Positions 12,454 through 20,937 of a stretch of DNA of 22,808 bases are shown piece after piece. A program made the position numbers and the translations under genes. Position 1 is the stretch's first letter. Every line of letters begins with the position of its first letter. The notes beneath the pieces were generated by a model. The model searched no databases, had not been told where the DNA came from, and saw nothing but the letters and a program-made list of their open reading frames with translations. The DNA lies in the IMG/VR virus record IMGVR_UViG_3300047560_002099, positions 1-22,808 of that record. One strand, written 5' to 3'. Source of the stretch: a virus.

Positions 12454-12681
12454 ATGGTCAATATTAATGCACACCAAGAACGAATGCAAATGCGAACAAT
12501 TATTGACATTATTCGACAAGCACAATGTGCTGACGTAATTCGAACCAGTTTCGACTATGAAATGGCGATCGCTATTAAAAGATCAATAATCGAAGAAATT
12601 AGACAGCAATATCCAATGCAGACGATGGGACTCGATACATCGATCCCACCTATTACTTTTGGGTCTTCATCCAAGTTTTAA
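12454..12681 (+). CDS. Small helical protein, 75 residues, unknown
   Basis: Starts 1 nt after the methyltransferase stop, with GAGGGG 4 nt before the ATG. It reads as two amphipathic helices (ERMQMRTIIDIIRQAQCADVI and EMAIAIKRSIIEEIRQQYP) and a short polar tail. The last 29 nt overlap, on the opposite strand, the end of the NUMOD3 gene, so the two genes meet tail to tail with shared coding sequence. No motif is recognised. Confidence 0.6.
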   Translation: MVNINAHQERMQMRTIIDIIRQAQCADVIRTSFDYEMAIAIKRSIIEEIRQQYPMQTMGLDTSIPPITFGSSSKF

Positions 12682-13027
12682 ATAGCAGCGGTTTTGTTTG
12701 GCCTGGTGTATCTTTAATGTACGTGTCGGCTAAGCTGTTTGTTCCAACTAGACGCTGAGACGGATCGAGTGCCATTTCGTTTGTATTGTGGATCCATTTT
12801 TGGAATGCTGATGTACGTCCCCATCTATTGCCTTGTGGGAGTTTGTTCTTCGTACGGGTTTCTTTCCCAGTGTTCTTATTAATCGACCAACTAAGACCAG
12901 CAGCGTTGCGGTGGCCTTCTTGTGAAAATGCAATAGCAAGCTTCTCGGCGTGAGTGTGCTTATGACCTTGAAAGTTGGAATGCCCTTTCATTGTCTTAGA
13001 TATTTTCCGCCTAGTTTCTATGTCCAC
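12653..13027 (-). CDS. NUMOD3-motif DNA-binding protein, homing-endonuclease associated
   Basis: A 124-residue minus-strand protein. Near the N-terminus RRKISKTMKGHSNFQGHKHT (6-25) fits the NUMOD3 motif, a short DNA-binding module normally found beside GIY-YIG or HNH nuclease domains in homing endonucleases. A basic C-terminal part (NKNTGKETRTKNKLPQGNRW near 50-69) follows, but I see no nuclease signature. It may be the DNA-binding remnant of a homing endonuclease or a family that works without one. The GTG start has GAGGTGG a few bases upstream and a divergent promoter. Its end overlaps the plus-strand gene by 29 nt. Confidence 0.7.
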   Translation of the reverse strand: MDIETRRKISKTMKGHSNFQGHKHTHAEKLAIAFSQEGHRNAAGLSWSINKNTGKETRTKNKLPQGNRWGRTSAFQKWIHNTNEMALDPSQRLVGTNSLADTYIKDTPGQTKPLLFKTWMKTQK

Positions 13028-13074: not shown

Positions 13075-13827
13075 ATGGACTTAGCAACATCATTCGTTTA
13101 TAACGTACTCAAGGTCGCCGTAGCAACAACTCCGGTTCATGTCGACGCGACTGCGACATATCAATTCAACCCAAGCATGTCTCAGGAAGAAGCATGTAAA
13201 AGAGCTGAAGATAAAGCAAAAACACAGGCTTTACAAAAAGTTCTTGGCCAGGATTTTGGTTCAGATTCTACTATGAGTTGTCGAGAGAGTGACACTTACA
13301 AGTGCGAATCTGTCAAAAATATGTACGAGAATACTCGTGGGTACATTCGATCGATTACATCACGAAATGAAAAAGTAAATGGTTGGAATTGTACTGTAGA
13401 TATTAGTGTTAAAGTGCAGGAGTTTAAGAAGAGAACTCCAACGATACAGTCTCAAGCGACTCTTGATCGCGTAGTGTATACAGCTCAAGATACAATCAAT
13501 CTTAATGTGTCTACCACCGATAAGGGGTATGTGATTGTATACAAGTATGATCCGATCGATAATCAAGTGACCAAGATATTTCCAAACGAAAATACTAAAA
13601 CGTCCACATGGACTTATAGCAACAGACCATTGAAAGTTACGATCCCAGCAAATTCGTTTCCTGAGAGAGAAGTACCTTATTATATGTTTGTGACAGTTGC
13701 GGGTGGCATAACTCCGACACTGTCCAACTATAGGTTGCATGAGTTTTATGATATGTGGGATAATCAACCATATGATGATATTACTTTCATTCGCAAGTCG
13801 TTTTATGTTTCAAGGAGTAAATTATGA
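13075..13827 (+). CDS. DUF4384-like envelope protein, possibly FlgT-N-like N-terminus
   Basis: A 250-residue protein with two regions. Residues 30-118 include EEACKRAEDKAKTQALQKVLG and a closing strand TVDISVKVQEF, resembling the N-terminal repeat of FlgT- or LPP20-type proteins. Residues 133-212 (VVYTAQDTINLNVSTTDKG, then VIVYKYD, KIFPNENT and PYYMFVTVAGG) follow the DUF4384 pattern seen in bacterial surface and periplasmic proteins. Four cysteines (41, 69, 77, 106) suggest disulfides outside the cytoplasm. The first 25 residues are fairly hydrophobic but begin MDLATS, so the export signal is imperfect. It is coupled by an ATGA overlap to the lipoprotein gene. Assignments are from memory of family patterns and are moderate. 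Confidence 0.72.
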   Translation: MDLATSFVYNVLKVAVATTPVHVDATATYQFNPSMSQEEACKRAEDKAKTQALQKVLGQDFGSDSTMSCRESDTYKCESVKNMYENTRGYIRSITSRNEKVNGWNCTVDISVKVQEFKKRTPTIQSQATLDRVVYTAQDTINLNVSTTDKGYVIVYKYDPIDNQVTKIFPNENTKTSTWTYSNRPLKVTIPANSFPEREVPYYMFVTVAGGITPTLSNYRLHEFYDMWDNQPYDDITFIRKSFYVSRSKL

Positions 13828-14519
13828 AGAGGATTTTAATATGTACGGCTATCCTAGCTATGGTTGGGTGTTCTAGCAATCCAGTTAAGATTGCTGAAGG
13901 GACGAAAACGATAGAGACGACTAAGCCTATCACTGTCACAACGCCAGAATGGTATGTAACACTTCCTCGAGAGGATGGCGCACTGTATGCTGCTGCTACA
14001 GAAGCATCATCCGATCTACAATTCAGTATCGATCGAGCAGTGATGTCAGCACAACGAGAGTTAGCATTTCGTTTAAATAATGAAGTATCACAGAAGTATA
14101 GAGACTACACCGCCGAGACAGGTAGTGGTGAGAATGAAACTATTACGAAGGATACGGAGCGATTGACTATATCCAACTCTAAGTATATTAATATTGTTGG
14201 CATCGAACGTCTCCGTACAGAAGTTGTCCGTGAAGGCAATCGCTACCGTGCATATGTATTGGTTCGATATGGTTTAGATGCATCAAATAAGATCCATGCT
14301 AACTATATGGCCAAACAACGCAAACAAGATGCTCGTGAGCGTTTGGATGAATTTGATAAGGAGCTGAAGGGTCAGCAAGCACCTAAAATCGAATCTAATG
14401 TTAAGTTAGACAAGAGCGATCTGCTTGGTCCTAAAGTTTCGGATGCTAGTGTTCGTGAGCGTGTACAACGAGTATATGATGATCCGAATGCTGTAATAAT
14501 TAGAGAAACCGTACGATAG
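13824..14519 (+). CDS. LPP20-like lipoprotein
   Basis: A 231-residue lipoprotein. The N-terminus MKRILICTAILAMVGCSSNP is a lipoprotein signal with the modified cysteine at 16; Ser17-Ser18 favour delivery to the outer membrane. The domain from about residue 40 shows the LPP20 pattern: PEWYVTLP, then an ALYAAATEASSDLQ stretch, an AVMSAQRELAFRLNNEV helix and a closing YRAYVLVRYGL strand near 145-155. The C-terminal 70 residues are a charged, likely extended tail. In bacteria LPP20/FlgO/FlgP and DUF4384/FlgT-like proteins occur together at the outer membrane, as here. The phage copy may alter the envelope or block other phages; this is inference. Confidence 0.8.
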   Translation: MKRILICTAILAMVGCSSNPVKIAEGTKTIETTKPITVTTPEWYVTLPREDGALYAAATEASSDLQFSIDRAVMSAQRELAFRLNNEVSQKYRDYTAETGSGENETITKDTERLTISNSKYINIVGIERLRTEVVREGNRYRAYVLVRYGLDASNKIHANYMAKQRKQDARERLDEFDKELKGQQAPKIESNVKLDKSDLLGPKVSDASVRERVQRVYDDPNAVIIRETVR

Positions 14520-18155: not shown

Positions 18156-18548
18156 ATGAAGATTGAAACACATCAAGTAATTACAATGCCCGCCGGTAGT
18201 TATTATATTGGGGATTTGTGTTATGTGTTAGATGACGACTGGGACGAAGCCTGTAGTATGTTCTTTGCGGGACGTAGCGATCATGGTGTTAATCAAGGTG
18301 GATTCACTTTGAGAGATGGCCGCAACTTTGTATGCTTCAATACTGCGTGGGGCGATGGTGGTTATGAGGATAACTATGGTCGTATGTATGGGGTCGATGC
18401 TGGGTGTATTGGAGCAATACAGGTTCCTGCTGGTAGTAAAGCTCCGTGGGGTGGTAATATAGTTGAATTCAAAAATGCATTTGAGTGTCGTAAAGAAGGA
18501 CGTGGAACTTTAATTTTTGGTGATGTTATAATTGAGACAGATACGTGA
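18156..18548 (+). CDS. Conserved phage protein, PAGSYYIGDLCYV type
   Basis: A 130-residue protein. PAGSYYIGDLCYVLDDDW (residues 12-29) is a motif I recall in many phage and some bacterial proteins of unknown function; it continues into a Gly-rich beta domain (DGGYEDNYGRMYGVDAGCIG). The ATG at 18156 is chosen over one at 18141 because GGAG sits 6 nt before it. The protein probably folds as a single beta sandwich. No enzymatic motif is seen. Confidence 0.72.
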   Translation: MKIETHQVITMPAGSYYIGDLCYVLDDDWDEACSMFFAGRSDHGVNQGGFTLRDGRNFVCFNTAWGDGGYEDNYGRMYGVDAGCIGAIQVPAGSKAPWGGNIVEFKNAFECRKEGRGTLIFGDVIIETDT

Positions 18549-18549
18549 C

Positions 18550-18741
18550 ATGAGATACAAAATGGATGTATCTGTTGAACAGGTAGACGCAATTGTCATA
18601 GAAGAGTTGAAGTTCGCATACGATATTAATCGGATATACAACGACGAACCCAGCAAAGAGTTGCGTGAAGCACTTGACCGAGTGTTGAAATATTATATGG
18701 TGCCATCTGAATATGAAGAGTATATTCGAACGCTAGAATAG
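18550..18741 (+). CDS. Small acidic helical protein, 63 residues
   Basis: Starts 1 nt after the previous stop with only GAGAC as a possible site; an in-frame ATG at 18562 is an alternative start. The sequence is helical: SVEQVDAIVIEELKFAYDIN and SKELREALDRVLKYYM, ending in SEYEEYIRTLE. It is the last plus-strand gene before the convergent minus-strand fibre genes. Confidence 0.6.
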   Translation: MRYKMDVSVEQVDAIVIEELKFAYDINRIYNDEPSKELREALDRVLKYYMVPSEYEEYIRTLE

Positions 18742-18742
18742 T

Positions 18743-18793
18743 GTCCCACTTATGTCCTCGCAAATGGCGTTATGCGATGTAGTTGGCAGGGAC
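18743..18793. other. Nested inverted repeat in the convergent intergenic region
   Basis: Outer arms GTCCC (18743-18747) and GGGAC (18789-18793) enclose inner arms TCGCA (18758-18762) and TGCGA (18773-18777) with a 10-nt apical loop. The 51-nt unit lies directly after the stop at 18741 and before a second hairpin. It could be part of a small RNA or a 3'-end protective structure; arms of 5 bp may also arise by chance. Confidence 0.4.
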
Positions 18794-18801
18794 CTCCATT
18801 T

Positions 18802-18850
18802 ATACACACTTGTAAGATAACGGTCCTAAGGTGTGTATTTAATTGTTTTA
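18802..18850 (+). terminator. Hairpin terminator with rRNA-like loop
   Basis: A 10-bp stem (18802-18811 with 18829-18838, one T-G wobble), a 17-nt loop and then TTTAATTGTTTT. It closes the plus-strand run and faces the end of the minus-strand fibre gene at 18848. The loop and right arm contain ATAACGGTCCTAAGGT (18817-18832), which matches a conserved 23S rRNA stretch and the core of the I-CeuI site as I remember them. The long loop is unusual for an intrinsic terminator. Confidence 0.6.
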
Positions 18851-20083
18851 ATATATTTCACGCCATTGCATAGTAACACCCACTGTAGTAGAATCGGTGG
18901 CATGTATGTTGGTTGCAGCAACAACGTATATTTCCGAATCGGTGCTATCAAAATTCTGAACGATATAGTTTTTCTTAGCCGATGGTGGCATACTGGGAGT
19001 TGGCGCACCTCCTTGTGCTTGCACTGAGTTTTGACTACTGGCAGCGACGAATCCACTAAGAAGTTCATCGCCATCAGTAAACGCAGTTGCTCCGGCCATA
19101 TATTCAACACCACTATCATCATCAACAGATACCCAACTACCACCTACTGTCAATTGAGATATGTTTGGCAGCTTTATCATACGATATTTAATATTAGCAC
19201 CTGTAGATATAATATTAACCTGACCGGGTCTAACGATCATTCTGTTAAGATATGTTTTATATGATGTTTTTAAACGTATCGCCAACACAGGTAAAGTAGC
19301 ACCCGCGGCAAGTGTTCTCAGTGTGGGGGAAGCGACCGCCCAATCAGAACCAGCTTCAACATAACCGCCTTCCGATATTACCGTACTACAGATTTGATCG
19401 AAATATGCACCGGTTGTTGTTCCAGTATTAAGAAGCTCACAACGCACCGGTAAGTTAGGCGTACTCATGTACACAGTTGGTAGCTCGTTGCTATGGTCAA
19501 ACACATGAGCAACAATATACTCACCATCATGGACAAACCCCACTCTCACACGACCAACACCCAACCATTGGAAGTCAATGAATATTAGCTGTGTTTTTGT
19601 GATATCAATTGTGAAAGCATTTGGTCCAACGCCGTTGCATTTATTTCTATTCCAATTCGATTGAGATACTCTTGTCTCTACAGCACTTCCACTAACATAA
19701 CTGCGGACTACAAAACTCAATGTACCGTCGCCTGTCTGTTCAAAGAAAATACCATTGTTATCATCGAAGTAGCCTGTACGCTTTGTCACGTTTGCAACAG
19801 CAGCATAGAAGTTAAAACTAGACAGAATCAACTGACTCTTGCCGGGCATGTAATGATGATAAAATTTCGACTGATGCACCATACGGCTTGCAGAATTACT
19901 CGACGTCGTTAGACGTGCGCAAGCCTTATTTGCTTGATAAGCAACTGTTGCACCGTTTGTGGCATACTCGATAAAGTTGGAATCAATGCCGTATAGATGC
20001 TTGTAGTCACCAAGCGTATACGGAGTAGTAACTGTCTGTCTACCAAACGCATCAACGTTTGGTTCTTTGAAAAGATATGTCAT
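18848..20083 (-). CDS. Virion structural / tail-fibre protein
   Basis: A 411-residue minus-strand protein, Gly, Ser, Thr and Asn rich with beta strands throughout. Blocks such as FYHHYMPGKSQLILSSFNF, RTGYFDDNNGIFFEQTGDG, FIDFQWLGVGRVRVGFVHDG and CSTVISEGGYV match, from memory, a structural protein family of marine phages thought to form a fibre or head decoration. It would sit on the virion and could contact the host. The ATG at 20083 is supported by TTGGAG 7 nt upstream and an ATGA overlap with the preceding gene; an upstream TTG at 20095 is rejected. The stop lies beside the hairpin terminator. Confidence 0.8.
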   Translation of the reverse strand: MTYLFKEPNVDAFGRQTVTTPYTLGDYKHLYGIDSNFIEYATNGATVAYQANKACARLTTSSNSASRMVHQSKFYHHYMPGKSQLILSSFNFYAAVANVTKRTGYFDDNNGIFFEQTGDGTLSFVVRSYVSGSAVETRVSQSNWNRNKCNGVGPNAFTIDITKTQLIFIDFQWLGVGRVRVGFVHDGEYIVAHVFDHSNELPTVYMSTPNLPVRCELLNTGTTTGAYFDQICSTVISEGGYVEAGSDWAVASPTLRTLAAGATLPVLAIRLKTSYKTYLNRMIVRPGQVNIISTGANIKYRMIKLPNISQLTVGGSWVSVDDDSGVEYMAGATAFTDGDELLSGFVAASSQNSVQAQGGAPTPSMPPSAKKNYIVQNFDSTDSEIYVVAATNIHATDSTTVGVTMQWREIY

Positions 20084-20937
20084 ATTATTCTCCAACCATT
20101 GCTGTAAATTAACTGCACAGCGCCGTTATTAACTTTTATAATGAAACCATCAGGATCGTTGTCAACACGACCCACTACAGTGATCGGATAGTATGCGGCA
20201 CTACCAGACTCATCCTTAATTACAAGTACTCGACCGTTAGACACAGTAGTTGGCAGATATACCGCAACATTCCCAGGATAATCAACGCCAACATAATAAT
20301 CATGTCTGCTGATATTATAACTGTCACTGACAACTACATGCGTTCTATGATCAAGTTGATCAACACTACCAGCACCACCGCCTGGTCCAGTCATTGATAT
20401 CTTGCTTACCCACCCCTCCAACATCTTCAACTTATTTTGAATATCTCTAATGTCTCTACTTACAGGAGGAGGATCGGGCTGAACAAACATTGAAGGGGAC
20501 TTAGTAACTTTAATCCTATCAACAACATCCTTAACAGGATCCTTGATTGGGGATTCAATGATTGGCTCTTTGGGTGCGGAAATGGAAGTATTCTCTACTA
20601 TCTCTTCAATAAAATCTTCTGTTGTTTGGTCTTTATGTTCTACCGATTGAGCTTCGATTTCATCAACACGAGACAGTACATTAGCAAACCTATCAAGAAG
20701 AACTTGCTCTTCCTCAGTCTTCTTTTTATCATCTGATATCAACCTACTAATGTCTTTTGAAAGGTCAGCAAACATCGAACTGAATACTGCTTTTCGTTCT
20801 TCTTTTATTGCTTCTTGTTTTATTTGCTTGGCTTTTTCAACAGCAATTTGATCATAGACGGACTGTTCCGTAACGACTCCTAAACGGTCGTTCATTCTAA
20901 TTAATAGGTTGAGTTCTTTTATTTTATCCATAATCAT
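20080..20937 (-). CDS. Virion structural protein with coiled-coil N-terminus
   Basis: A 285-residue minus-strand protein. Residues 1-115 are charged and helical (a probable trimeric coiled coil); 120-160 is a Pro-rich linker; RDIQNKLKMLEGWVSKIS (164-181) is followed by GPGGGAG (184-190); and 200-285 is a beta domain with DYYVGVDYPGNVAVYLP, VLVIKDESG and a GAVQLIYSNGWRII end. The last domain is typical of phage fibre or whisker proteins as I recall them. The coil would connect the fibre to the particle. It is co-transcribed with the fibre gene downstream (ATGA overlap). No Shine-Dalgarno precedes the ATG at 20937 or the in-frame ATG at 20931. Confidence 0.78.
   Translation of the reverse strand: MIMDKIKELNLLIRMNDRLGVVTEQSVYDQIAVEKAKQIKQEAIKEERKAVFSSMFADLSKDISRLISDDKKKTEEEQVLLDRFANVLSRVDEIEAQSVEHKDQTTEDFIEEIVENTSISAPKEPIIESPIKDPVKDVVDRIKVTKSPSMFVQPDPPPVSRDIRDIQNKLKMLEGWVSKISMTGPGGGAGSVDQLDHRTHVVVSDSYNISRHDYYVGVDYPGNVAVYLPTTVSNGRVLVIKDESGSAAYYPITVVGRVDNDPDGFIIKVNNGAVQLIYSNGWRII

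Follow-up and report, generated by a model that had tools for sequence, protein, structure and literature searches.

Why does a 16-nucleotide stretch between 2 genes of a phage match 23S rRNA? The window, as we call the whole stretch of DNA analyzed here, is one IMG/VR virus record (IMGVR_UViG_3300047560_002099), linear and 22,808 bases long, with the gene content of a large phage, including a ribonucleotide reductase small subunit, PhoH, exonucleases, and a glycosyltransferase. An earlier, sequence-only reading had described a nested inverted repeat and a 10-bp hairpin between convergent genes, the hairpin holding a 16-nt match to 23S rRNA, and had offered a decoy RNA, a captured rRNA fragment, a homing scar, an oddly built terminator, or coincidence as explanations.

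The 16-mer and the structured element in the window

We identified the match as exact, with ATAACGGTCCTAAGGT at 18817-18832 on the plus strand identical to positions 1916-1931 of the E. coli K-12 23S rRNA, and we consider it meaningful as part of a structured intergenic RNA. The 16-mer occurs once in the window, and 10 of 100 shuffles contained any site for it at ≤3 mismatches. The flanking ORFs are convergent as described, a putative 69-aa ORF (plus strand) facing a 415-aa ORF (minus strand). The hairpin at 18802-18838 is also present, but its perfect stem is 8 bp (18802-18809/18831-18838) whichever strand is read, and on the plus strand U.G and U-A pairs lengthen it to 10. The 16-mer, placed by the same reading in the loop and arm, lies mostly in the loop, its final 2 nt being the first two bases of the 3' stem. 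The inverted repeat at 18743-18793 folds as stated, but the fold is of ordinary stability when taken alone (z -0.45 on the plus strand, -1.83 on the minus strand). These 2 halves were joined into one element via alignment to relatives (Table 1).

Table 1. Positions of the element, its parts, and its flanking ORFs in the window
Feature	Position	Strand	Basis
Whole structured element, ~100 nt	18740..18841	- (strand of virion gene, proposed RNA)	Conservation as a unit; covariance model
Hairpin P3, stem AUACACAC/GUGUGUAU around the 23S-complementary block	18802..18838	-	Folding
Block i, ACCUUAGGACCGUUAU, exact complement of E. coli 23S 1916-1931 (H69-H70)	18817..18832	-	Sequence match
P1/P2 region, pseudoknot-like pairing GGGA:UCCC	18743..18793	-	Folding; pseudoknot by eye
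P1 apical-loop block ACGCCAUU, complement of 23S 1969-1976 (8 nt)	18763..18770	-	Sequence match
Gene A, virion structural protein, 415-aa ORF	18848..20095	-	phrog_1645 match, E 1.2e-114; stop codon directly before element
69-aa putative ORF, convergent, far side of element	18532..18741	+	ORF listing

The junction as such is not conserved, since no element occurs there in most distant homologues of the virion protein, and the 135-aa neighbor protein found no relatives when used as a search probe. Elsewhere in the window, the ORF at 13824-14519 (plus strand) is predicted to be lipoprotein-like (MKRILICTAILAMVGCSSNP..), which is uncommon for a phage. A short protein beginning MDIETRRKISR.. is encoded at 12653-13027 (minus strand), and proteins with this start are also gene B beside the element at loci L004, L193, and L234, where the start may be a NUMOD3-like repeat, considered here as a possible sign of an adjacent homing gene; the neighbors of other members are without it.

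The exact 16-mer was found in 50 viral contigs with about 24 distinct contexts, mostly intergenic, and the reversed 16-mer, as a control, in 23 contigs with 9 of 9 distinct contexts within ORFs. Clear 23S sequence on both sides was seen in only 1 of the 50 contigs (L042), and the exact 19-mer had no occurrence among 84,980 species genomes. The match in L160/L185 was rejected as an element, being probably coding as judged by eye from conserved codons. At L165 (14421-14579), apparent 23S sequence starts abruptly at GGTCCTAAGG after unrelated sequence, as in a contig chimera or rDNA insertion, and several INPHARED records labeled as phage (among H1-H13) are host 23S rRNA sequence.

A family of structured elements in large phages

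About 70 distinct elements were identified in large phages, one of which is the cultured jumbo phage PA5oct, and these elements constitute a family of phage RNA elements that is absent from Rfam 15 and was previously unrecognized. Like the phage structured RNAs of Rfam, they are intergenic and belong to tailed phages, but no Rfam 15 family matched any member scanned at gathering or permissive thresholds, with gathering scores for tRNA and tmRNA only, and we found no description of such an element in the open-licence literature. The evidence base consists of uncultivated contigs from one database plus cultured phage records. Comparison with phage genomes, as the sequence-only reading had advised, gave relatives of the window element among uncultivated contigs and no match to it in cultured phages.

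A search with ACGGTCCTAAGGTGTG recovered 53 contigs, nearly all sharing one architecture. On the gene strand, the stop codon of gene A is followed after a few bases by ACAC-(ACCUUAGGACCG plus an optional hairpin)-GUGU, then by a GGGCGGCUGCUGCCC-type hairpin and a stem with the loop UUCGCUACC (or GUCGUGCC, or AACGCCAUU), and last by AAGUGAGC and the promoter of gene B. Just past the gene A stop codon and ahead of the gene B promoter is the usual site in most members; L051 is an exception, with the element beside the gene B start and no long gene A ahead, and we count it against the explanation favored below. Sigma70-like promoters were seen by eye after the element in the set selected by a DsbA-like protein (see below), and none is evident in the window.

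Members carry 2 near-invariant blocks, CCUUAGGACC within the P3 stem and UUCGCUAC, or a substitute (GUCGUGCC, AACGCCAUU), in the P1 loop. The window has CCUUAGGACC within P3 and keeps this first block only, with ACGCCAUU in the P1 apical loop where other members have UUCGCUAC. Window-type members, with the loop AACGCCAUU, pair CCCC with GGGG (UCCC:GGGA in the window), whereas others pair UGCU with AGCA; the pseudoknot-like pairing is GGGG:CCCC, by eye, in the L051, L193, and L204 types.

Despite different flanks, L051, L004, and L193/L196 preserve the element as a whole, with L004 (on a 202-kb contig) and L051 carrying the same unit of ~105 nt at about 90% identity beside one or two unrelated flanks. 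Two selections addressed an outcome that had been named beforehand as refuting, namely loss of the 16-mer with retention of the stem. A pattern drawn from the other hairpin, and thus blind to the 16-mer, led to L193/L196, in which TAACGGTCCTAAGGTGTGT is kept and the 5' arm and loop differ. An unbiased set was chosen solely by a downstream DsbA-like 86-aa protein (80 loci fetched, 76 with enough upstream sequence); the element was present in about a third of the 76 upstream regions, nearly all of which retain CCUUAGGACC. In these relatives GGTCCTAAGG is constant and the P3 stem is altered by compensation, with variants such as ACUC/GAGU, UCAC/GUGA, CACC/GGUG, and AUACAC/GUGUAU seen by eye. The refuting outcome was seen in neither selection.

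Covariance analysis, likewise suggested earlier, confirmed that the stems covary. Among 34 aligned members, with the window excluded, 92.6% of pair cells were paired vs 71.5% after shuffling (0/500 shuffles), 89 cells were double-changed vs 29, and sliding the pair partners made the signal collapse. A covariance model (R1) built from these 34 members, window-type members excluded, had the element as its only significant match in the window (22 bits, E 4.6e-4; next 2.5), aligned mainly through the P3 half, and recovered all nine window-type relatives searched, plus L002.

One copy per record was the usual finding: CGGTCCTAAGG occurred exactly once in 10 of 12 phage records searched and was absent in 2, R1 had 1 match in 11 of 12 (including the 202-kb relative), and CCTTAGGACC occurred once in 8 of 10 (among them a 512-kb genome), many of these records having been found via the motif itself and many being fragments, as is the window with its 1 copy in 22.8 kb. 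The genome of PA5oct (286,783 bp; MK797984.1), a phage that grows, as do its relatives, on P. aeruginosa PAO1, was reached via the neighboring protein and has 1 R1 match at 115466-115561. This element lies between the stop codon of EST35_0189 and an intrinsic terminator, and therefore within the expected 3' UTR, and it contains 2 blocks complementary to 23S 1920-1930 and 1929-1937. The stretch recurs at 99-100% identity in ten other records, including Paride, Callisto, MIJ3, and one second PA5oct record. Seven other well-known large phages, among them T4, KVP40, P-SSM2, GAP32, RaK2, and HTVC008M, gave no convincing match.

Probable working strand and complementarity to rRNA

Plain fold stability did not discriminate between the strands; the wobble count did. 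Isolated non-Watson-Crick sites flanked by pairs were counted in 66 unique P1 stems; on the rRNA-like strand, 19 of them read A.C and 4 read G.U, as expected if they form wobble pairs on the gene strand (binomial p 0.003 for independent sites, the sites being not fully phylogenetically independent). At the outer position of P2 the gene strand has G-C, A-U, or G-U, and the downstream neighbor lies on that strand in 34 of 36 contexts. Evidence pointing to the plus strand comes from wobbles in the 5' arm of window-type P3 and from a P1 helix with wobbles that might form on that strand, and L200 and L214 show the reverse wobble signal. Because of the wobble pairs and the gene orientation, the working RNA is likely the gene strand (minus in the window), complementary to rRNA and no copy of it.

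On that strand, block i (CCUUAGGACC) complements 23S 1921-1930 and block ii (UUCGCUAC) the adjoining 1930-1937, for which the window has its substitute complementary to 1969-1976. Of the 24 contexts picked for the 16-mer alone, 7 have a UUCGCUA or ACGCCAUU block in the 130 nt that follow it, against a chance expectation of about 5% of contexts (all k-mers, both sides), and several further contexts run straight into TCGCT. With the selected motif removed, the rRNA-sense strand of 14 representative members shares 59 nine-mers and 25 10-mers with E. coli 16S/23S vs 13 and 3.3, respectively, with shuffled rRNA (0/300); the opposite strand showed no enrichment in this test, whose phage-DNA control includes related loci and is hence less clean. 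In single-sequence folds, block ii is unpaired at 0.71 and block i at 0.49 vs 0.41 for the rest, the value for block i being counted against the favored explanation. A complement of 16S CAGCAGCCG may be incidental because it is less strict, many members having CAGAAGCCG. The idea of a captured rRNA fragment is mostly wrong, since the flanking stems are not rRNA, covary, and differ among relatives, and no 23S similarity extends beyond the 16-mer. Single subfamilies (the L203, L204, and L202 elements) also match 16S 1221-1231 (GGCTACACACG), the anti-Shine-Dalgarno (CCTCCTTA), and 16S 810-818; these resemblances, and one to 16S 1394, are confined to subfamilies and were set aside as possible chance.

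Phages with tRNA arrays (L003, L037, L046, L049, L157, L161, L166, L171, and L178) carry an rRNA-like element on the tRNA strand that is likewise not in Rfam. The rRNA-like strand was the tRNA strand at 12 of 12 loci with tRNAs and an ncRNA-like motif. The element often consists of GGATTACA..TAACGGTCCTAAGGTAGCGA, a hairpin with the look, by eye, of a stable tetraloop, and then TAGCGA, often right after a tRNA gene, and it may be a different RNA with opposite logic. The L158/L170/L175 group has its motif in a protein-gene 3' UTR, with the rRNA-like strand opposite. Other, apparently unrelated 3' UTRs (L006, L011, L013, L029, L031, L155, and L173 besides this group) have 23S-complementary blocks between the stop codon and an intrinsic terminator. 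At 1499-1530 of L188 and L192 (Arcanobacterium phage TPWB06 and Staphylococcus phage PG-2021_4), a stretch of 40 nt that looks like the complement of 23S 1920-1960 lies three bases past the stop of an exonuclease gene and upstream of tRNA genes. Around 1501-1528 of L189, L190, and L191, GGAACTTACCCGACAA lies between genes of phages TS33, Arya, and AH01, in TS33 and AH01 behind endolysin/lysin genes, and could be a single accidental match to rRNA that was inherited.

A possible ribosome-directed RNA and its alternatives

The 23S segment around helices 69-71 is universally conserved. The explanation that we favor, and to which we give an even chance, is that the element is a structured 3'-UTR RNA of the virion gene transcript that pairs with this segment in the host ribosome, the pairing being deduced from complementarity. 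The RNA would arise by minus-strand transcription, as the 3' untranslated portion of the transcript, and, either released from the 3' UTR or acting within it, would pair with H69-H71 of the free or maturing 50S subunit, the segment being exposed while the subunits are apart; such pairing could influence subunit joining, recycling, or transcript fate. One copy per record searched, with changing neighbor genes, suggests action in trans, as a 3'-UTR-derived small RNA, rather than regulation of one gene. More tentatively, a single-copy RNA of this kind would pair via separate loops with adjacent 23S stretches of helices 69-71 and act in trans, and the tRNA-array phages would carry its rRNA-like counterpart, making the segment a common phage RNA target.

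Calicivirus TURBS offer an analogy: there, mRNA upstream of a stop codon pairs with 18S rRNA after termination and serves re-initiation on the downstream ORF. The two share a location close to a stop codon and complementarity to a conserved stretch of rRNA, but the phage element is downstream of the stop and its proposed target is the large subunit. H69 forms bridge B2a, is in contact with tRNAs and factors, and has a loop in which several changes are strongly inhibitory to translation (PMC1190176). As summarized in PMC7038079 (citing Kulik 2017), complementing H69 with an antisense PNA inhibits E. coli growth; the PNA, however, is a synthetic oligomer, whereas the element would give a natural RNA.

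The alternative that survives best, though we think it rather unlikely, is a cis-acting 3'-UTR or transcription-boundary cassette (insulator, stabilizer, or factor-dependent terminator) whose rRNA complementarity is incidental. Its model is the PeSL cassette of T4-type phages, described as a stem-loop with an early promoter, placed between genes and dispersed in many copies (Arbiol 2010, PMID 20333230; Comeau 2014, PMID 24951563; via PMC4503421). As far as that description goes, the likeness extends to gene polarity and mobility among genome positions, in line with the consistent orientation of our element between the gene A stop and the gene B promoter, its changing neighbors, and its place directly ahead of an intrinsic terminator in PA5oct. 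Against this, PeSLs as described there are many dispersed copies, whereas the element has one match per record, covarying stems, and constant blocks that are contiguous rRNA complements. No U-run follows the element in the window, and no terminator-like site with a G+C-rich stem and U-run was found in 18500-19000.

An rRNA-like decoy from the plus strand, binding a factor, toxin, or enzyme that recognizes 23S H69-H71, would fit the rRNA-like sequence of that strand, the H69-like hairpin of some members (CCGU..ACGG, by eye), and the strand agreement in tRNA-array phages. We consider it improbable, the wobble and orientation counts favoring the complementary strand, the H69 loop sequence not being conserved, and the hairpin missing in some members (L203, L217). 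More improbable still is a site acting as DNA, such as a homing target or scar, recombination hot spot, origin, or packaging signal; the single copy, the position at synteny breaks, and the presumed overlap of the 23S segment of the 16-mer with the I-CeuI target speak for it, but covariation and strand-specific wobble indicate RNA, and no intron was found in the element; the homing scar is unsupported. That an ordinary hairpin happened to match 23S is very improbable, for although a 16-mer rRNA match in a window of this size has a chance of a few percent, the independent second block, the rRNA words enriched outside the selected motif, and the protein-selected conservation disfavor coincidence.

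We know of no phage that controls the host ribosome by RNA-RNA pairing. If the 3'-UTR RNA does pair with helices 69-71, phages would address the host ribosome in this way, and at the site where it is most conserved. Should the rRNA link turn out to be incidental, large phages would still have a widespread structured RNA, seen once per record, that had been missed.
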